From Candidatus Obscuribacter phosphatis (lineage in GTDB: Bacteria > Cyanobacteriota > Vampirovibrionia > Obscuribacterales > Obscuribacteraceae): 64,000 nt of DNA. The DNA lies in the NCBI GenBank assembly GCA_001899315.1, contig MOYA01000001.1, positions 1,518,884 through 1,582,883 of the forward strand, written 5' to 3'. The notes under the pieces were generated by a model that was not told where the DNA came from, did not search any database, and was given only the letters and a program-made list of their open reading frames with translations. This document shows positions 1 through 41,760 of the stretch, one piece after another. Every line of letters starts with the position of its first letter. Positions within the stretch are counted from its first letter, which is position 1. The translations under genes and the position numbers were made by a program.

Positions 1-1199
1 TTGATGAGTTGCCCGGCGAAATTCAAGCCTATCAGGATGTGGCGATCTATCCTAAAGTGCCTGGCTTTATCGAATGGATAGGAGTAGACCGGGGTTCTAT
101 AGTCAAGAAAGGTCAGATTATGTGCCGTCTGACTGCACCAGAGCTAAAGGCCCAACAAGACGAATATCTTTCAAAATCGAGATCGATGCAGAACGCCCTC
201 TTTGAGGCACAATCACGACTATCGGCGGCAAAGGCGGCCCTACTGGAAGCCAAAGCTCAGTTGGCAGGCGATAACGATACATACAAGCGAACCAAAGAAG
301 CCTCGCTGACGCCGGGTGTCATTGCTCCCAATGATGTCATCGTGCTTGAAGAGAAAGTGCAAGCGGACAAAGAAAGGGTGAAAGCCTGGGAAGAGAATGT
401 ACAATCTGCAATGAATGCCGTTAAAGTGACTACAGAAAGCCTGGCAGCCTCAAAAGAAGCAAGCGAGAATTACAAAGATATTGCCGACTATCTGATTATA
501 AAGGCGCCCTTTGACGGCTATGTCACTGAAAGGAATATGCATGTGGGCAGCTTTGTCGGACCTCTGGGTAAAGGTGCTTATCCACCAATTATTAGAGTGC
601 AAGAGCTAGGTCTTTTGAGGATCATTACCCCGGTGCCGGAGGCAAATGTAGCTGGTGTAGTGCCTGGAGCTCCGGTGGAATTTACAGTCTCCACTCATCC
701 TGGTGCCAAGTTTGTAGGCACAGTCGCAAGACTAGGAAATTCTCTCGAACAAAAAACCAGAACTATGCCGGTGGAGCTAAACTATCTCAACCCGCAGTGG
801 AAGATACTGCCCGGCATGTTTTGCCGCGTTCTGTGGCCCACCAGAAGAGAAAAACCATCACTATTTGTTCCGCCCCAATCAGTCGAGACCAAATCAACCC
901 TTTCGACATTTGTCTGCAAAATAGAAAACGGCTTGACCAACTGGATACCAGTAGAGAGGGGCGAAATGATGAATGGACTAACTGAGATTTTCGGAGACCT
1001 CAAAGAAGGTGACCTAGTTGCCAAAGACTGCACCGATGCCTTGAAGCCAAACACCAAAGTGGAAACTATCTTGTCCGAGCCAAGCGAGTTGGAACCAAGA
1101 AAAGTTTACGAAACTCATGGCACCATTTATCACACGCCTGATGCCGAAAGGCTGGAATTGCAAAAAACAAAAACTTCGCCGATAGTCGAGCAACAATAA
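1..1199 (+). CDS. RND/HlyD-type periplasmic adaptor subunit (5' end outside window)
   Basis: Periplasmic adaptor (membrane fusion protein) that would link an inner-membrane pump to an outer-membrane channel. The frame is already open at base 3, before the first possible start (TTG at 9). The visible N-terminus reads directly into a family-typical segment (GEIQAYQDVAIYPKVPGFIE), so the true start and signal or lipid anchor lie to the left. Domains in order: first half of the lipoyl/barrel-sandwich domain (VDRGSIVKKGQ), a long alpha-helical hairpin at about residues 45-160, the second lipoyl half (IKAPFDGYVTERNMHVG), then beta-barrel and membrane-proximal domains. The pump partner is not in the window and may lie upstream. 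The C-terminal 50 residues are polar and look like a tail. Family is clear; substrate is unknown. Confidence 0.88.
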   Translation, partial: DELPGEIQAYQDVAIYPKVPGFIEWIGVDRGSIVKKGQIMCRLTAPELKAQQDEYLSKSRSMQNALFEAQSRLSAAKAALLEAKAQLAGDNDTYKRTKEASLTPGVIAPNDVIVLEEKVQADKERVKAWEENVQSAMNAVKVTTESLAASKEASENYKDIADYLIIKAPFDGYVTERNMHVGSFVGPLGKGAYPPIIRVQELGLLRIITPVPEANVAGVVPGAPVEFTVSTHPGAKFVGTVARLGNSLEQKTRTMPVELNYLNPQWKILPGMFCRVLWPTRREKPSLFVPPQSVETKSTLSTFVCKIENGLTNWIPVERGEMMNGLTEIFGDLKEGDLVAKDCTDALKPNTKVETILSEPSELEPRKVYETHGTIYHTPDAERLELQKTKTSPIVEQQ

Positions 1200-1240: not shown

Positions 1241-2947
1241 CTAGTGGCTTACCTGTTTCTTCCATGCCTCTAGCAAATCTTTGTCAAGAAACTTGCCCAA
1301 AAGACCACCGTCTTCAAGATATTGAAGGAAGGAAGCAACATCTGGCACTTTCTTTACCTCATGCCTATAAGTATGCAAGATAAAGACATCAGGAAATCGG
1401 TATGTTTCAACCGTGAAACCCTTGGAAATATCTTGAATTTTCTCTTTAGACAAAGCCAGTCGATCGCATACGACACCGCCTTTGACATCTCTCGAATTAA
1501 GCATCATCTGACACATCATGCCAAAATCCCAAACCCCATCATAAATTGGCGCCCAATTAACATAACGCGGACAGCCCACCAGAAAGATAGATGACTGCTT
1601 ACTAAAACTAGCTTTGTTCTGCAATAAGGTCTCGATGACAGTGCGCTGCAGCAGCCAAGAGACTTGCCATTGCTTAGCCGTGACAAGGTCGGCCAGGCAA
1701 TAAAAACTCGTCAAAATGAACAAGAAGCCAGCTGGCAAAACAGTAGATAGTTTTGCCAGTAATGAATTACCTCGCTTGAGAAAGACTTCTCTCAAAATGA
1801 CTGTCAAATAACAAACCAAACCCGAGAGCACCAAGGAACCGCCAAGTCCGCCACCGGTATTGACCCGATTGAAGATGCTTTCGATGAGCGGGTGATACTC
1901 CTTATTAAGCCCGAAGATAGAATAAGAACAGAGTATTGCTATTAAACCAACCAAGATAGCTCTCAAATAAGTCTTTTTTGCTTGAACAAATGACTCGGCT
2001 TGGGTTTCATCGCGCAACACCAGAAAGCTCAATGCCGCAAAAATTAGACCCAATCCCATCATAGGCAGAAGAGTACTTAGGCTGGAGAGATAACCTTCAA
2101 GCCAAATTCGCTGACCAATTTCGCTAAAGAGTTTGGGTCCGAGCTGAATATTGAGGCCGTCTACCAAGGTGGAGGCTATCTCGGCAATGTCAAAAACCGG
2201 CACATGCACCAAAGGTTGGACGAACATCGGAATGAATATCTTCTGATAGACAACAAAGGCAAGCACAGGCAAGGCAAAGAAAAAACCAGCGAGAAAAAAC
2301 GACTTAAATCTCGCACCTATGTTTGGTGCTGACTTGGCAAGAATGAGAGCGTTGAAAGCAGCAAAAGGCAAAAAAAGTTCATAGTTAAAAATGCCTGCTG
2401 TAAAACTTAGCCATGAGAGAAAGACAAGCAGACGACTGCGCCTTTTGACTGATGTAGAAAGATCGGCTAACCAGAGACTAAAGGTAGAAAAGAAGAGCGA
2501 TAGCGAGACCGAATTGCACATTACCCAATAATGGGTAGTGTCGTGGCGGGGATCCAACAATGCCAGACTGGCGGCAATGAAGGCTAAGCCCCTAATCCCG
2601 AAGAGTCTGACCAGCAAGAGATAAAAGAAGAAAATAGCCAGCACTTCAAAAAACGCATAAGTAAAGTGGTAGCCAAAAGGTTCAACGCCGAAACAAGCCT
2701 GCATGAGAGGAAACTGCAAGGCTTCGACAGGTCGCATGGCCACTCTGCCGTCAATAAAGAAATAATAGGCAATTTTGGCAAATATATCCTGCGGCGCAAA
2801 ATGCAAGTAACCGAGCATTGTCCAGTCATCTAAATAGAAACCGGTATTGCGGAAAGTTCTGCCAAAAACAGCCAGCTCAAGAAAGGCAAGCCAAGCAAAC
2901 ATCAGTACAGCATGGCTATTCTTTAGTTTCTTGAGAAAAGCAGACAT
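1241..2947 (-). CDS. GT-C-like polytopic membrane protein
   Basis: Hydrophobic protein of 568 residues with about 10-12 predicted membrane helices. An acidic pair in the first external loop (YLDDW near residue 40) is followed by an RPVEAL segment and a DPRHDTTHYW loop. This layout is seen in GT-C superfamily glycosyltransferases of the PMT/ArnT type, which transfer sugars from polyprenyl carriers outside the membrane. No individual family is recognisable, so donor and acceptor are unknown. The last 110 residues are soluble. The gene starts 15 bases after the murF stop, as the last gene of a three-gene minus-strand run. A second protein with the same general layout lies at 44488-46938. Confidence 0.6.
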   Translation of the reverse strand: MSAFLKKLKNSHAVLMFAWLAFLELAVFGRTFRNTGFYLDDWTMLGYLHFAPQDIFAKIAYYFFIDGRVAMRPVEALQFPLMQACFGVEPFGYHFTYAFFEVLAIFFFYLLLVRLFGIRGLAFIAASLALLDPRHDTTHYWVMCNSVSLSLFFSTFSLWLADLSTSVKRRSRLLVFLSWLSFTAGIFNYELFLPFAAFNALILAKSAPNIGARFKSFFLAGFFFALPVLAFVVYQKIFIPMFVQPLVHVPVFDIAEIASTLVDGLNIQLGPKLFSEIGQRIWLEGYLSSLSTLLPMMGLGLIFAALSFLVLRDETQAESFVQAKKTYLRAILVGLIAILCSYSIFGLNKEYHPLIESIFNRVNTGGGLGGSLVLSGLVCYLTVILREVFLKRGNSLLAKLSTVLPAGFLFILTSFYCLADLVTAKQWQVSWLLQRTVIETLLQNKASFSKQSSIFLVGCPRYVNWAPIYDGVWDFGMMCQMMLNSRDVKGGVVCDRLALSKEKIQDISKGFTVETYRFPDVFILHTYRHEVKKVPDVASFLQYLEDGGLLGKFLDKDLLEAWKKQVSH

Positions 2948-4402: not shown

Positions 4403-5701
4403 TTAATCCTTCTTGGTCACTTTAGACCACAAATTACCAAGCCAACCACTCTTCTTATCACCGCTTACTTCTTCCTGACTAGGCGTCTTTACTTGCGCTG
4501 TGTCAGATGGAAGTTCCTTGAGAACTTCATGAAACTCTTGTCCGGTCTTGATGCACATTTTCATCGCCAAGACGCACTGCGAATTATTGATTATTCCGTC
4601 TACTACCAAACCTTGACCTTGATAGGCGGCTTGGATCAAACGCTTCTCCACCATTTCTTTGGTGAGAATGACCTCGGCGATAGAAACGTTCAGCTGCCGT
4701 CCCAACGACTGAGCTCTATTGAAGTTTTCACCGGTAAGAGCGCCCGACTGTAGAAGTAATTCCAGCACGCCGGTTACTTTCTCGATCTCGTCTTTACGTG
4801 AGGCTCTTTCTTCGATGATTACATCAATGCCAACTTTGCGGCTATTTGCCTGTCTAAGGATATCGGCGGCCTGCAGACCGCTTATTTGTCCGCTCGAAAC
4901 CATCTCTTGCAGGCGCAGACTTTCATCAACCACTCCAGGAGCGATCATGCCAGATTGCACTAGGACTTCGCCTATCTTCTGATTCTCATTCAAGCCGATT
5001 TCAATGGCTGAAATCTTGTCGCCTTCAGTAACCAAACCAGCCTGGGTAAGCAAATCTCCAAGTTTGACTGACTCTTTCTGCCCTTGCCGATAGGCACCGG
5101 CATCGACAAGAGATTGCTCTAGGGACTGCTGCTTTCGAGCGGCACTCTTAAGACCGTTAATTGCCTGCTCTTCTGTGATTTTGCCGTCTCTCATCAAGAC
5201 CTGGGCAGTAAGAGCCGACTGCAAAAGATTGGAGGATATGGCTCGATTGAGAACCAAGCAACGTCCAAGGGGAAGATTATTCTCCTGCGACTGCCAGAGC
5301 GCCTGCTCTAAAACTGATTTGTCAATCAATCCAGATTGCACAAGCAGACTGCCTAGTTCACCAAAAGTACCAGACTGCTCTTCCATATCGGCGGGAGGAG
5401 TCCAGCCCAGTCTGCGAAAAGCCTCATCAAGAGGAATCTTGCCCTTGACCGAAACGTTTATTACTTTCACGCCGAAATCAGCGGATATGACGCTATTGCG
5501 GATGAGACCCTGAACGTAAAGAGCAGTCTCAACATCACTCTCAGAGAGCTCACCTATGGTCATAAGCACGCGGCCAACTGGTGTCTGAGAGTTCTTTGAT
5601 ATCTTCAGAGCTTCAAGCAATACTTCCTGTCTGATGACGTTAGCCGCCACCAGCAGCTCGCCAATACGCTTAGGGGGTACGCGTCTACCAGATATTTCCA
5701 T
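4403..5701 (-). CDS. Protein of four MshEN/T2SSE-N-like repeats, no ATPase domain
   Basis: A 432-residue protein built from four tandem units at about residues 12-82, 115-188, 212-288 and 309-385. Each unit has two half-motifs of the form LGELLVQSGLI...L..AL..Q and LGRVLV..G.I...L..AL..Q. These resemble the N-terminal MshEN (GspE-II) domain of type II secretion/type IV pilus ATPases, which in some proteins binds cyclic di-GMP. No Walker motif follows, so this is not a secretion ATPase. The C-terminus (SGWLGNLWSKVTKKD) is amphipathic with two Trp and could touch membrane. There is no signal peptide. It is first gene of the run ending with murF and the GT-C-like gene. Repeat identity is seen in the sequence; ligand binding is inference. 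Confidence 0.7.
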   Translation of the reverse strand: MEISGRRVPPKRIGELLVAANVIRQEVLLEALKISKNSQTPVGRVLMTIGELSESDVETALYVQGLIRNSVISADFGVKVINVSVKGKIPLDEAFRRLGWTPPADMEEQSGTFGELGSLLVQSGLIDKSVLEQALWQSQENNLPLGRCLVLNRAISSNLLQSALTAQVLMRDGKITEEQAINGLKSAARKQQSLEQSLVDAGAYRQGQKESVKLGDLLTQAGLVTEGDKISAIEIGLNENQKIGEVLVQSGMIAPGVVDESLRLQEMVSSGQISGLQAADILRQANSRKVGIDVIIEERASRKDEIEKVTGVLELLLQSGALTGENFNRAQSLGRQLNVSIAEVILTKEMVEKRLIQAAYQGQGLVVDGIINNSQCVLAMKMCIKTGQEFHEVLKELPSDTAQVKTPSQEEVSGDKKSGWLGNLWSKVTKKD

Positions 5702-5813: not shown

Positions 5814-5849
5814 AGCAGACACCAACTCGTTACCGAGTTGATGCCTGCT
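5814..5849 (-). terminator. Strong intrinsic terminator of the four-paralogue cluster
   Basis: A 16-bp stem with two G-T wobble pairs and a 4-base loop lies about 40 bases downstream of the last paralogue on the minus strand. It is followed on that strand by TTCTTTTCTTTG. Confidence 0.85.
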
Positions 5850-5887: not shown

Positions 5888-6337
5888 TTAGTAGTTGTCG
5901 TCGTAAGGAACAACAAAACCTTTGCCCTGGAAAATCATGCTATGGCTGCCGCTGTGGGGGCTAGGATAGCCGATGAAGCCATGCTTCATGCCATAACCTG
6001 CACCGTGCAGCAAGCCATAGGTGCTGCCGCCGAGCAGTCCGATAGGACCACCAGTCACAGCTCCAGCTACCATCTCGTAGACACCATCTTCTTTGCCGAG
6101 GTTGCGAGCAACCATCTTGGTTCCACCGATAGCACCTTTGATGCCATCTTGGAAGGCAGCAGTGGGAACGTCCCAAGCAGTAGTCACGGCAGCCGAGACC
6201 ACGCGGCAGGGGAAGTACCACATTTCGTAGATCACGCGAGCGGATTCAGGACGCTCGGGGTACGCCATACTGGGCGCATTAAGACCGACTAGCAGTCCGG
6301 CAGCAGCCAGCAATGACGACAGAAATTTCTTTTGCAT
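5888..6337 (-). CDS. Small secreted glycine-rich paralogue 4
   Basis: A 149-residue exported protein of no family I recognise. The signal peptide is MQKKFLSSLLAAAGLLVGL with likely cleavage after APSMA. The mature part has aromatic/Pro motif YFPCRV, then DGIKGAI, VARNLGKEDGVY, and a glycine-zipper stretch (GGPIGLLGG...YG...G.GMKHG). I chose the ATG at 6337 over the ATG at 6349 because GGTGA lies 5 bases before it. It is the last member of a four-gene tandem array and is closest to the first member (7376-7765), sharing KGAI, LG.EDG.Y and GGP.G..GG. Its C-terminus diverges (GKGFVVPYDDNY) and lacks the GWEKPFS-like ending of the other three. Function unknown; possible membrane-associated or assembling protein. 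Confidence 0.8.
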   Translation of the reverse strand: MQKKFLSSLLAAAGLLVGLNAPSMAYPERPESARVIYEMWYFPCRVVSAAVTTAWDVPTAAFQDGIKGAIGGTKMVARNLGKEDGVYEMVAGAVTGGPIGLLGGSTYGLLHGAGYGMKHGFIGYPSPHSGSHSMIFQGKGFVVPYDDNY

Positions 6338-6377
6338 TATCCTCACCATCTTCCTAAAAGTGATTCGCTAAAATCGA

Positions 6378-6794
6378 TTATTTCTCTTCCATAGTCAGGA
6401 AGGACCAGCGGCTGAAGGGTTTTTCCCAGCCTTTCTTCCAGCCGTGGAAGAAGCCGCGATAAACACCATGAGCGCTACCCAACACCAGACCGGTGGAACC
6501 ACCAATCGGAACAGCAGCCATGCGCTGACCCCAACCCTTTTCGTCGCCGAACTTTTCGGCTACGTGGTTGGTGCCTTTGAGGAACCAATGGTAACCATCA
6601 TCGATCGGACCGCTGACAGCACCGGTGAAAAGAGCACCACTGACAGCACCGACGGTACGAACCGGAGCTTGCAGCACCCAGTTGACCGGTTTGGCTTCGT
6701 AGTCGATAGCTTGAGCTTCCGGAGCTACTGCCGGAAGATAAGCAGCGGCCACGAGAGCCGAAAGAATTAGCTTACCTAGAACTTTTTTAGTCAT
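6378..6794 (-). CDS. Small secreted glycine-rich paralogue 3
   Basis: A 138-residue exported protein. The signal peptide MTKKVLGKLILSALVAAAYL ends near EAQA. The mature protein has the shared cluster motifs: a Pro-Val-Arg segment (APVRTVG), VAEKFGDEKGWGQ, then a glycine-spaced helix pair (IGGSTGLVLGSAHGVYRGFFHG) and the conserved ending GWEKPFSRWSF. The ATG at 6794 is preferred over the GTG at 6803 because GGTGGG precedes it. It is closest to paralogue 2, with VAEKFGDEKG.GQ, GWEKPFS and the terminal EEK in common. It lies 40 bases upstream of paralogue 4. Function unknown. Confidence 0.82.
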   Translation of the reverse strand: MTKKVLGKLILSALVAAAYLPAVAPEAQAIDYEAKPVNWVLQAPVRTVGAVSGALFTGAVSGPIDDGYHWFLKGTNHVAEKFGDEKGWGQRMAAVPIGGSTGLVLGSAHGVYRGFFHGWKKGWEKPFSRWSFLTMEEK

Positions 6795-6833
6795 TTTTCC
6801 CACCGTTTCTAATTTCTAAGACTAAGTTGGGGG

Positions 6834-6863
6834 TGCCCGGCATCACTTGGCATATGCCGGGCA
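6834..6863 (-). other. Intercistronic hairpin between paralogues 2 and 3
   Basis: A perfect 10-bp inverted repeat (TGCCCGGCAT / ATGCCGGGCA) with a 10-base loop sits in the 81-base gap. It has no T-run after it on the minus strand, so it looks more like an mRNA-processing or stability element than a full terminator. Confidence 0.65.
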
Positions 6864-6875
6864 ACTCTTCCTTAA

Positions 6876-7256
6876 TTACTTCTCTTCAGTTACCAGATAA
6901 GATTCTGTGCTGAAGGGCTTTTCCCAGCCAGTGACGAAGCCGTGACGGGCTCCGGTGATGGCACCGTAGGGCATACCCCATACGAAACCAGTCGGAACGC
7001 CGATTACGAAGGCGGCCAAATTCTGACCTAGACCTTTTTCATCACCGAATTTCTCAGCGAGGATACGCTGAGTTTTGTAGGGCATGCGCCAGAGAGAGTT
7101 CACGAGAACACCCTGAGGAGCGTCGAACACACCAGCGGTTACGGAACCGAAGAAGCTAGCAACGCTGCCGAGAGGGCCGTCGGCGGCCATCGAGGGCATT
7201 GCAGCTCCAAGGGTCAGCACCGAGGCTGTCACAAGAGCGAATACTTTGTTTTTCAT
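6876..7256 (-). CDS. Small secreted glycine-rich paralogue 2
   Basis: A 126-residue exported protein. The reading frame extends to 7331, but the ATG at 7256 has AAGGA in front of it and begins a clean signal peptide (MKNKVFALVTASVLTLGAAM, cleavage near PSMA), so I take that start. The mature part has LAEKFGDEKGLGQ, a glycine-rich segment (IGVPTGFVWGMPYGAITG) and the shared ending GWEKPFSTES. It is the second of four tandem paralogues, preceded by a hairpin in the 119-base gap. Function unknown. Confidence 0.82.
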   Translation of the reverse strand: MKNKVFALVTASVLTLGAAMPSMAADGPLGSVASFFGSVTAGVFDAPQGVLVNSLWRMPYKTQRILAEKFGDEKGLGQNLAAFVIGVPTGFVWGMPYGAITGARHGFVTGWEKPFSTESYLVTEEK

Positions 7257-7277
7257 TTCCTTACCACCTGGAGTAGG

Positions 7278-7302
7278 AGGATGGTTCTGAGAGAACCATC
7301 CT
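7278..7302 (-). other. Intercistronic hairpin between paralogues 1 and 2
   Basis: A perfect 11-bp inverted repeat (AGGATGGTTCT / AGAACCATCCT) with a 3-base loop lies in the leader of paralogue 2, about 20 bases before its start. No T-run follows on the minus strand. Confidence 0.7.
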
Positions 7303-7375
7303 CTCAATTCCCAACATTGTTTTAGAAGCACACCATTAGTATCTAATTTAAATACTCAGTTGACCAACGATGAAG

Positions 7376-7765
7376 TTAGTCTTCTTTGAAGGTGAAAGCT
7401 TCTTTGCTGAACGGCTTTTCGAAGCCGGTTTTCATACCGTGCCAGCCGCCGTCGAAGCAGCCATAAGCAGCTCCGCCAACGATACCGAAGGGTCCACCAA
7501 CAAGGGCACCAGTCCACTGTTGATACATACCATCTTCGTTACCGAGCTTGCCGGCTACCCACTTGGTGGACATGATGGCGCCTTTGGTACCATCTTTAAC
7601 CGCACCGAGGGGAACACCAACTACGGTGCCTACACCAGAACCAAGAACTCTGACAGGGAACAGGCAAACTGTTTTGAATGTGTCGTCATCGGCATACGAA
7701 GGAGCGACCATTGTGCCAACCAGAGCCGAGGCTAGTATGAAAGAGGACGCTAACTTTTTAAGCAT
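7376..7765 (-). CDS. Small secreted glycine-rich paralogue 1
   Basis: A 129-residue exported protein and first gene of the array. The ATG at 7765 is preferred over the ATG at 7777 because GGAG lies 6 bases before it. The signal peptide is MLKKLASSFILASALVGTMV with cleavage near PSYA. The mature part has FPVRVLGSGVGTVVG, DGTKGAI, VAGKLGNEDGMY, a glycine zipper (GGPFGIVGGAAYGCFDGG) and the ending GFEKPFSKEAF. It is closest to paralogue 4. A short inverted repeat 34 bases upstream may be its operator. Function unknown. Confidence 0.82.
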   Translation of the reverse strand: MLKKLASSFILASALVGTMVAPSYADDDTFKTVCLFPVRVLGSGVGTVVGVPLGAVKDGTKGAIMSTKWVAGKLGNEDGMYQQWTGALVGGPFGIVGGAAYGCFDGGWHGMKTGFEKPFSKEAFTFKED

Positions 7766-7819: not shown

Positions 7820-8185
7820 GACCAGACCTGGACCAACTCGGCCCGAGACCAATCCCCATTTTACTCATTTTCTCCGAGAGGTCCATATTTAATGACTCGT
7901 ATTTTTGTAGCAGGCAGAGTGAAGAGCGGAACTGGTGTGCGTTTCGGGAATAATATCGGCTTGTAAAAAGTTTGTTGGATAGAATACACTTTCCAAGCGG
8001 TATATCGAATCATAAGCCTTATGCCCTTCTCTCAAATATAGAGCCAGTGGGGATCTTCAGACTTCAGAGCATACTGACAAGCTTGCCGCACCAAATACGG
8101 TTGCAAAGCAGTGGTTGTCAGGTGCATTTTTACCCCGGGAACATATTGCAGCCCATCCACGTCTGATTATATTTCGTTCAGAAAG
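7820..8185. other. Non-coding stretch upstream of the paralogue array
   Basis: No convincing gene. It holds an 11-base palindrome CTCGGCCCGAG at 7837-7847 and presumably the promoter of the array. A 24-codon plus-strand frame at 7892-7966 has only a distant AGAGG before it and was not accepted. Confidence 0.5.
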
Positions 8186-8220
8186 GGAATGAGGCACCAT
8201 TTTCAGTGGCACCTCATTCC
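8186..8220 (-). terminator. Probable terminator of the glycosyltransferase gene
   Basis: Hairpin with outer 9-bp stem GGAATGAGG / CCTCATTCC, two mismatches, 3 more pairs and a 7-base loop, 26 bases after the stop. The T-run after it on the minus strand is weak (TTTC). Confidence 0.55.
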
Positions 8221-39173: not shown

Positions 39174-40997
39174 ATGAGCCAATACGAAATAAAAGAACAT
39201 GACGTCATAGTCATCGGAGCCGGCGGTGCCGGTCTTAGAGCAGCCATTGAGGCTTCCGCCCAGGGCGTGAGCGTGGGACTGATTTGCAAGTCCTTGCTCG
39301 GCAAAGCGCACACTGTCATGGCAGAGGGAGGCGTCGCCGCCGCTCTAGCCAACGTGGATGCGCAGGACGGCTGGCAGACTCACTTCAAGGACACCATGAA
39401 TGGTGGCAAGATGTTGAATAACTGGCGAATGGCCCAGTTACATGCCCAAGAGGCACCAGATCGAGTCAAAGAGCTGGAGCGTTGGGGCGCTGTCTTCGAT
39501 AGAACAAAAGACGGGAAAATTCTCCAAAGAGCTTTCGGTGGTCACACATGGAAAAGACTCTGTCACGTAGGAGACCGCACTGGTCTCGAGATGATCAGGA
39601 CCTTACAAGACCGTGGTGTGCACCAAGGCATAGACGTCTACATGGAATGCACAATCACCAAACTCTTCAAAGATGGCGACAGAGTAGCTGGAGCCTTCGG
39701 CTATTACAGAGAAGACGGTCGCTACATACTCTTCAAAGCCAAAGCGATTGTACTGGCTACCGGCGGAGTCGGTAAATCATTCACAGTCACCTCCAATAGC
39801 TGGGAGTACACTGGGGACGGACATGCCATGGCTTATGACCTTGGCGCCGACCTGATTGACATGGAATTTGTGCAGTTCCACCCCACCGGCATGGTATGGC
39901 CGCCAGGTGTGAGAGGCATTCTGGTAACGGAAGGCGTCAGGGGCGAAGGTGGTATTCTTCGCAACAACAAAGGCGAACGCTTCATGTTCAAGTATTTGCC
40001 TGAAGCCACCAAAAATGATTATGCAGCTACTGAAGAAGAAGCCGTTAAATGGGTTAACGCAGCGGTTGCCGGAGAAAAGACTGAGGCTAGAAGACCTCCG
40101 GAATTGTCCACTAGAGACAACGTAGCAAGAGCTATCTATACCGAAGTGAAAGAAGGAAGAGGTTCTCCCCATGGCGGTGTCTTCCTGGATATCAGCTATC
40201 AAGACTCAGAGCGTGTGAAGAAGAAGCTACCTTCGATGTATCACCAGTTCAAAGACTTGGCCGATGTAGACATCACAGCAGGCCCCATGGAGGTCGGACC
40301 GACAATGCACTACATCATGGGTGGTGTACGTGTGGAAGCCGACACCTGTATGACCAGAGTTCCCGGATTGTTTGCCGCCGGTGAAGTTAGCGGAGGCATG
40401 CATGGTGCCAATCGATTAGGTGGAAACTCTCTTTCCGACCTAGTAGTTTTCGGTAGAAGAGCCGGTCTAGGTGCCGCAGATTATGTAAAGGCTCTCACTG
40501 GTCATCCTGAGATTGACAAAGGGCAAATTGAAGAAGCCATCAATGAAATGGAGGCTCCATTTAAGCGTACCGACGGTGTCAACCCTTATGATGTCGCAAA
40601 AGAACTGAACAAAATAATGTCGACATATGTTGGCATTTTCAGAGAAGAGAGCGATCTTCAAACTGGCATCAGTAAGCTCGAAGAACTTAAGGAGATGGCG
40701 AAAAAAGCCAAAGCTACCGGTTCCAAAGCTTACAACCCCGGATGGCACCTCTGCCGTGACTTGCACAACATGCTTGTCTGCTCAGAAGCGATTGCCAGAA
40801 GCGCACTATCAAGGAAAGAAAGTCGAGGCGCCCACAGTCGACTCGATTATCCCAACACTGAAGCCGATTGGGGCAAGGTTAACACTGCAGTGGAATTGTC
40901 CTCCGGCGGTATGAAGTTGGAACATACCCCTCTACCGGAGATGCCAGCTGATTTGAAAGAGCTATTCGCCAAGAAGAAGGAGCCCAGTAATGCCTGA
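39174..40997 (+). CDS. sdhA: Succinate dehydrogenase flavoprotein subunit
   Basis: Catalytic subunit (607 residues) oxidising succinate to fumarate. FAD fold VIVIGAGGAGLRAAIEA; His46 in KAHTVMAEGG is in the usual position of the covalent FAD-His. VQFHPTGMVWPPGVRG and TEGVRGEGGIL form the substrate site, HYIMGGVRVEADTCM lies in the capping/active site, and HGANRLGGNSLSDLVVFGRRAG is the C-terminal FAD segment. It overlaps sdhB by 8 bases. Together with the anchor and FeS genes it forms a complete three-subunit complex. Confidence 0.96.
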   Translation: MSQYEIKEHDVIVIGAGGAGLRAAIEASAQGVSVGLICKSLLGKAHTVMAEGGVAAALANVDAQDGWQTHFKDTMNGGKMLNNWRMAQLHAQEAPDRVKELERWGAVFDRTKDGKILQRAFGGHTWKRLCHVGDRTGLEMIRTLQDRGVHQGIDVYMECTITKLFKDGDRVAGAFGYYREDGRYILFKAKAIVLATGGVGKSFTVTSNSWEYTGDGHAMAYDLGADLIDMEFVQFHPTGMVWPPGVRGILVTEGVRGEGGILRNNKGERFMFKYLPEATKNDYAATEEEAVKWVNAAVAGEKTEARRPPELSTRDNVARAIYTEVKEGRGSPHGGVFLDISYQDSERVKKKLPSMYHQFKDLADVDITAGPMEVGPTMHYIMGGVRVEADTCMTRVPGLFAAGEVSGGMHGANRLGGNSLSDLVVFGRRAGLGAADYVKALTGHPEIDKGQIEEAINEMEAPFKRTDGVNPYDVAKELNKIMSTYVGIFREESDLQTGISKLEELKEMAKKAKATGSKAYNPGWHLCRDLHNMLVCSEAIARSALSRKESRGAHSRLDYPNTEADWGKVNTAVELSSGGMKLEHTPLPEMPADLKELFAKKKEPSNA

Positions 40998-41760
40998 AAC
41001 CTCCACTAGAACAGCCACTCTCAAGGTCTACCGAGGCGACAGAGAAAAAGGCGAATTTAAGACCTATAAAGTGCCTGTTGAAGCGGGCATGGTTGTGCTG
41101 GATGCTATCCATTACATTCAACAAAATTTCGATCCTGAATTGGCCGTGCGTTGGAACTGCAAGGCAGCAAAATGCGGCTCCTGCAGCGGAGAAGTGAACG
41201 GTATGCCGTCTTTGATGTGCAAGACCCGTATGGATAGATTCCGTCCGGATGAAGAGATTATGGTTCAACCCATCAAGACCTTCCCGATCATCAAAGATCT
41301 GGTTACCGATGTCAGCTGGAACTATGAAGTGAATAAGCGAATCACAGCTTTCACTCCTGCTGAAGACGCAGACTGGACCTTCTATCAAGAAGACATCGAT
41401 CGCGTTCAAGAGTTTAGGAAGTGTATTGAATGCTTCCTTTGTCAGAACGTCTGTCATGTTCTAAGAGATCATGACCGTAAAGATGCCTTTATGGGACCGA
41501 GATTCTTGGTCAGAACCGCCAGCCTTGAGATGCACCCATTAGATACTGCCGACCGCTTGAAGTTCCTCAAAGACGAAGGCCATATCGGTTTCTGCAACAT
41601 CACAAAGTGCTGTACAGAAGTTTGTCCTGAAGACATTCACATTACAGACAACGCAATCATTCCGCTCAAAGAACGCGTAGTCGATGAGTTCTATGATCCT
41701 CTCGGTAAGTTCCTGCGCGGCGTGCTCGGTGCCGATAAGAAGAAAGCTAAGAAGAGCTAG
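40990..41760 (+). CDS. sdhB: Succinate dehydrogenase iron-sulfur subunit
   Basis: A 256-residue electron-transfer subunit. The [2Fe-2S] ligands lie in WNCKAAKCGSCSGEVNG and SLMCKT. The second domain has CIECFLCQNVCHV and CNITKCCTEVCPEDI for the [4Fe-4S] and [3Fe-4S] clusters. The first Cys group is spaced CxxxxCxxC as normal. It ends the operon; its 3' end overlaps the convergent AbiEi-like frame by 14 bases, and the operon terminator lies inside that gene. Confidence 0.96.
   Translation: MPETSTRTATLKVYRGDREKGEFKTYKVPVEAGMVVLDAIHYIQQNFDPELAVRWNCKAAKCGSCSGEVNGMPSLMCKTRMDRFRPDEEIMVQPIKTFPIIKDLVTDVSWNYEVNKRITAFTPAEDADWTFYQEDIDRVQEFRKCIECFLCQNVCHVLRDHDRKDAFMGPRFLVRTASLEMHPLDTADRLKFLKDEGHIGFCNITKCCTEVCPEDIHITDNAIIPLKERVVDEFYDPLGKFLRGVLGADKKKAKKS

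Follow-up and report, generated by a model that had tools for sequence, protein, structure and literature searches.

In a 64,000-nucleotide stretch of the "Candidatus Obscuribacter phosphatis" genome (the window), four adjacent minus-strand genes (5888-7765) appear to encode a new, lineage-specific family of small, exported glycine-zipper proteins. The genes are predicted to form one highly expressed operon and are conserved, in fixed order, throughout the order Obscuribacterales. We tentatively propose, with confidence close to but short of an even chance, that their products are glycine-zipper hairpins that build an abundant assembly, either at the outer membrane (in or on it) or in the periplasm; both the location and the oligomeric state are what we infer from the properties described below.

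Gene content and predicted operon

In transcription order the genes are d (7376-7765, 129 amino acids), c (6876-7256, 126 amino acids), b (6378-6794, 138 amino acids), and a (5888-6337, 149 amino acids), the members 1 to 4 of a previous, sequence-only reading. Its description of four adjacent paralogous genes for proteins of 126 to 149 residues was confirmed by the open reading frames (ORFs) and by a search of the organism's own genome. With d as the query against the whole genome, a, b, and c were matched at E values of 9e-23, 2e-15, and 1e-11, respectively; b aligned with c at 5e-22 and a with c at 3e-8, and the four proteins aligned together have 20 invariant columns. These similarities point to paralogy beyond chance. 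The search with d also recovered three further, dispersed copies in the same genome (at 1498-1896 of L004, 1483-1887 of L006, and 1492-1911 of L007), the first of which adjoins a LytB/IspH gene.

Upstream of d, a consensus scan predicted a minus-strand promoter (TGGACC-16 nt-TAAAAT, 7858-7885). The consensus match alone is expected by chance, and support comes instead from an alignment of the region 5' of d from 13 diverse genomes, in which the boxes AATATGGACC and GTAAAAT align. About 75 nt before the promoter is another conserved box, CCAACAAACTTTTTACAAG (7960-7978, minus strand), which is found in nearly all of the 13 aligned genomes and could be a regulator site or a second promoter element. 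The d-c spacer contains a hairpin with a perfect 12-bp inverted repeat that lacks a T run (7277-7303, minus strand), and the c-b spacer contains a GC-rich one (TGCCCGGCAT/ATGCCGGGCA; inverted repeat at 6833-6864, minus strand). Relative to shuffled sequences, these spacers had fold z scores below -2 in 23 and 22 of 39 genomes, respectively. The b-a spacer folded no better than shuffles, with such a score in just 1 of 39 genomes. Following a, an intrinsic terminator (5814-5849, minus strand) consists of a 16-bp stem and then TCTTTTCTTT, and the region 3' of a had z scores below -2 in 33 of 39 genomes. Based on the conserved promoter, the hairpins after the first and second genes, and the terminator, d-c-b-a is predicted to be one operon. 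Spacer hairpins often shield the upstream message and grade expression inside operons. A separate 14-bp inverted repeat, directly after the glycosyltransferase gene (8186-8220), is probably the terminator of that gene.

With codons weighted by 15 ribosomal protein genes of the organism's own genome, codon adaptation of the four genes (0.74 to 0.81) is level with that of ribosomal proteins (0.757). The four rank first to fourth among the 55 ORFs of the window (mean, 0.568; standard deviation, 0.074), with the highest value for b, and at 27 of the 38 other loci examined the operon mean was higher than the value of the top flanking gene. This codon bias predicts high expression of the operon. A literature search for Obscuribacter expression data returned nothing useful. 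After the operon, the highest codon adaptation in the window is that of genes encoding succinate dehydrogenase/fumarate reductase subunits (FAD and 2Fe-2S; 39174-41760, plus strand). Among the dispersed paralogues, L004 and L006 have ribosomal-level codon adaptation (0.81 and 0.79), and L007 does not (0.58).

Distribution and genomic neighborhood

A scan of genome contigs identified 40 relative loci, several of them near-identical to one another. When these were searched with a profile of the window's four proteins, all four genes were present in identical order and on the same strand in 38, and the remaining two loci are cut by contig ends; orthologues of d are present in all 38 evaluable loci. 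Because the genes recur in order in these 38 relatives and because dN/dS of the mature parts, calculated against four relatives, is only 0 to 0.16, we judge the four ORFs to be real genes, all of them apparently under strong purifying selection.

With a 51-member profile, the family was detected in 52 of 53 genomes of the order, including 22 of 22 of good quality, usually in 4 to 11 copies. In a sample of 289 genomes of the class (Vampirovibrionia), to which the host belongs, it was found in the order and in 11, 9, and 6 genomes of the taxonomic families f4, f8, and f7, respectively, and it was essentially missing from f3, the largest family of the class. Distant members retain a partial glycine lattice, together with the turn A..(L/F)G..(D/E)G and the motif G-(W/Y)-x-KP-(F/W). 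A phylum-wide sample yielded no convincing member outside the class. Profile matches there (G090 and G289), like those in one family of the class (L061 and L063-L065), were low-complexity or other proteins on inspection. Two loci titled Proteobacteria and Chloroflexi (L021 and L033) hold the complete operon, and these metagenome-assembled genomes look mislabeled.

Many relatives keep the order fabZ, lpxA, MFS, family-2 glycosyltransferase (GT2), operon, 432-amino-acid gene, and murF. The neighborhood is thus envelope-rich, yet shared order alone is no proof of shared function, and the synteny may be inherited order only. The 432-amino-acid gene (4403-5701, minus strand) lies directly downstream of the operon and is beside it in 28 of the 40 relative loci; a Pfam search with its product gave nothing better than an E value of 0.3, and the sequence resembles degenerate repeats. 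A Pfam search with a 568-amino-acid protein of the window (1241-2947, minus strand) gave no match. LpxC is present in the host genome, and a lipid A outer membrane is therefore expected. Codistribution with lipid A was rejected as proof that the proteins act at the outer membrane, since nearly all members of the class have LpxC and its presence is uninformative. Given this near universality and the absence of the family from f3, the proteins are not needed for outer membranes generally.

Evolutionary history

Phylogenetic trees separate the four positions into as many orthologous groups, with group d resolved less firmly than the other three. The presence of these groups across the order indicates that the duplications predate Obscuribacterales. 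In the best unrooted tree, a groups with d and b with c (98/95 support), which agrees with the pairing of members 1 with 4 and 2 with 3 that had been read from the sequence, but other pairings survived AU tests (p = 0.45 and 0.37). An origin of the members by duplication was likewise supported, and both of the specific routes that had been put forward fared poorly. Direct tandem copying of a two-gene unit would produce the order X-Y-X-Y, whereas the order found is X-Y-Y-X on one strand. A single duplication of this kind is therefore improbable, and stepwise gene duplications more likely gave rise to d-c-b-a. Alternating exchange is unlikely: throughout Obscuribacterales, every member traces a separate orthologous line, gene order is fixed, and the trees contain no sign of exchange between positions. 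Horizontal transfer or a plasmid origin was also rejected, as there was no plasmid match and the orthologous groups are vertical.

Protein architecture

Each of the four proteins begins with a predicted signal peptide (residues 1 to 25 of d, encoded at 7691-7765; approximately 1 to 24 of c and 1 to 29 of b; and 1 to 25 of a). The export signals proposed earlier held up on re-prediction, with a rule based on n, h, and c regions recognizing 156 of 158 cluster members. A lipobox pattern occurs in 2 of the 158 and in none of the window's four.

The glycine spacing that had been noticed in the sequence is real. In d, residues 90, 94, 98, 102, 106, 110, and 114 form seven glycines at exact four-residue steps (7424-7498, minus strand), each conserved as Gly in 91 to 99% of the 173 family sequences compared, and all of these sequences (100%) have Pro118. 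This zipper spans 25 residues, or ∼37 Å, about one membrane thickness. Membrane insertion or self-assembly, as suggested by the previous reading, is plausible from the sequences. Hydropathy is only moderate, charge is balanced, and most segments score poorly as transmembrane helices, so insertion is not assured.

Protein a had been described as having lost the GWEKPFS ending, which was wrong in substance. The protein keeps the invariant Gly and Pro within an altered motif, GYPSPHS, and then adds the tail GYPSPHSGSHSMIFQGKGFVVPYDDNY, which ends in FVVPYDDNY. Across 37 distinct sequences, the C-terminal tail (residues 123 to 149; 5891-5971, minus strand) has 91% mean identity per position and is the best-conserved part of the protein; G123, Y124, S126, P127, G130, H132, F136, Q137, G138, V143, P144, Y145, D146, and Y149 are invariant. 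The tail is predicted to be disordered (pLDDT, ∼40), and its conservation suggests a docking motif.

AlphaFold modeled mature d with helices at residues 11 to 49 and 55 to 91 (mean pLDDT, 68.5) and protein a with helices at residues 6 to 55 and 61 to 97 (pLDDT, ∼86 to 91 in the core; mean, 73.7). Both models are of modest confidence (pTM, ∼0.5), and in both the conserved turn LG(N/D/K)E(D/K)G joins the two predicted helices. Based on these models, we predict with moderate confidence that the family fold is a long two-helix hairpin. Fold searches of the PDB gave no significant match (best Foldseek E value, 1.3; best Z score, 6.0, which is below a meaningful level for helical pairs).

Comparison with known families

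The proteins had been regarded as belonging to no assigned family, and this view stands: there was no confident match to any characterized family in Pfam, in NCBIfam, or among the sequences of solved structures. Pfam and NCBIfam searches gave nothing above family cutoffs, and no solved-structure sequence matched at better than an E value of 0.29. Judged by sequence, the proteins thus appear to be a new lineage-specific family of a known type.

By analogy, the best functional counterpart appears to be SlyB, whose oligomers are ring-shaped complexes that span the outer membrane (PMC13067283). The SlyB/17-kDa antigen family (PF05433) likewise consists of small, exported envelope proteins with a glycine-zipper helical pair, although an envelope site is only presumed for the family studied here. 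Unlike SlyB, this family has no PF05433 match (absent for 51 of 51 members even at E values of ≤10, with the profile also not found in the host genome), lacks the lipobox Cys (156 of 158 members) and a separate periplasmic domain, and is encoded as four paralogues in an operon. The Gly-zipper_YMGG, Gly-zipper_OmpA, and Gly-zipper_Omp families (PF13441, PF13436, and PF13488) share export and a glycine at every fourth residue, but the zipper here is longer, and a KPFS-type motif containing an invariant Pro comes after it. The best E values of these profiles among the 51 members (0.66, 0.064, and 6.3, respectively) are far below cutoff, and d scored 8.3 bits against a cutoff of 28.9 for PF13441 and 7.5 against 27 for PF13436. 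The exosortase-associated family TIGR04073 was also rejected, with no NCBIfam match in the 51 members at E values of ≤10; it was found in none of the 40 relatives, but control profiles likewise matched nowhere.

Possible functions

One alternative to an envelope assembly is a surface coat, sheath, or extracellular matrix whose subunits cross the outer membrane and self-assemble by glycine packing, possibly into amyloid-like fibers. The high predicted expression, export signals, and moderate hydropathy are all consistent with such a role, and glycine zippers occur in aggregating proteins too (PMC5380434). However, neither the operon nor the conserved neighborhood encodes an outer-membrane exporter, and we consider a coat unlikely. 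Surface proteins are usually far less conserved than a dN/dS of 0 to 0.16 implies, and conservation of the family is far above their norm. The moderate hydropathy and balanced charge would also suit soluble periplasmic chaperones or lipid carriers, in which glycine-lined hairpins shield hydrophobic cargo, four diverged copies could handle different cargo, and the conserved tail of protein a could serve in docking. Such a function is doubtful, given that the proteins resemble no known periplasmic chaperone or lipid carrier and that a row of seven small residues in register points more to tightly packed helices than to a binding groove.

The proteins might instead belong, as accessory subunits, to a complex that sits in the inner membrane or faces the periplasm, comparable to Romo1/Mgr2, Tim17, or ATP synthase c-type hairpins. 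The architecture predicted here is of the same class, a glycine-packed two-helix hairpin, but Tim17, Romo1 (Mgr2), and C19orf12 are eukaryotic families. The Romo1 profile weakly matched 17 of the 51 members (best E value, 0.0017), Tim17 and C19orf12 were also weakly matched, and the top structural matches include the core TIM23 complex (8e1m_A; Z score of 6.0 and rmsd of 3.5 over 68 aligned residues; Foldseek E value, 9.3). Yet the best Romo1/Tim17 score of ten members inspected singly was 16.0 bits, far below the curated cutoff of 27.6, and all inspected matches were confined to the glycine stretch (residues 72 to 127). The Tim17 similarity of bacterial glycine-zipper proteins vanishes once the zipper is masked (PMC5072337), and we rejected homology to Tim17/Romo1 as this known artifact, keeping only the likeness of architecture. 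No complex is encoded nearby, and an accessory-subunit role seems improbable. A still fainter prospect is that the proteins are contact-dependent bacteriocins like CdzC/CdzD of Caulobacter, killing neighbors by glycine-zipper insertion. Cdz systems also encode small, exported glycine-zipper proteins together (one to three of them), but they use type I secretion and an immunity gene and are patchy, often horizontally acquired (PMC5380434). The family described here has Sec signal peptides rather than type I secretion leaders and is universal in the order, vertical, and slowly evolving, and its conserved neighborhood (lpxA, MFS, GT2, 432-amino-acid gene, and murF) contains no type I secretion or immunity genes. 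An HlyD-like ORF of the window (9-1199) is within range in just one relative locus.

The envelope assembly is favored because of the signal peptides in 156 of 158 members, the seven-glycine zipper and invariant Pro, the AlphaFold hairpins, the ribosome-like codon adaptation, the conserved promoter, hairpins, and terminator, the presence in 52 of 53 genomes of the order, and the low dN/dS, together with the lpxA, fabZ, and murF neighbors, LpxC in the genome, and the lack of PF05433 there. Counting against it are the moderate hydropathy, the want of a fold match, the modest AlphaFold confidence, the possibly inherited synteny, and the near universality of LpxC in a class whose largest family lacks these proteins. 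Under this explanation, the operon would encode four obligate, non-interchangeable small proteins, each exported by Sec and cleaved to a mature chain of ∼100 to 125 residues. The chain would fold as a long two-helix hairpin whose second helix bears the seven-glycine zipper. Tight packing of the hairpins through their glycine faces would yield homo- and hetero-oligomers that lie within or against the outer membrane. These oligomers may be abundant and lend the envelope structure or protection, in principle like the glycine-zipper rings of SlyB, and the disordered tail of protein a would probably dock onto a partner. A more specific version, which we think unlikely as it stands, is an alpha-helical scaffold, specific to Vampirovibrionia and located in the outer membrane or periplasm, in which the four hairpin subunits are fixed, cannot replace one another, and are made at ribosomal-protein-like levels; it would have no described counterpart.

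Implications for Vampirovibrionia

The Vampirovibrionia (Melainabacteria) are a mostly uncultured, nonphotosynthetic sister line of the cyanobacteria, and their envelope has been little studied. The lineage-specific family described here carries strong signs, at the sequence level, of importance and abundance. A universal, strongly conserved, and probably very abundant set of four proteins would provide a direct handle on this envelope, and it yields both an undescribed family to name and a proteomic prediction for existing samples. The set could also serve as a model for the assembly of multiple glycine-zipper hairpins that each have a fixed role, and it may bear on how outer membranes are stabilized without SlyB-type proteins.
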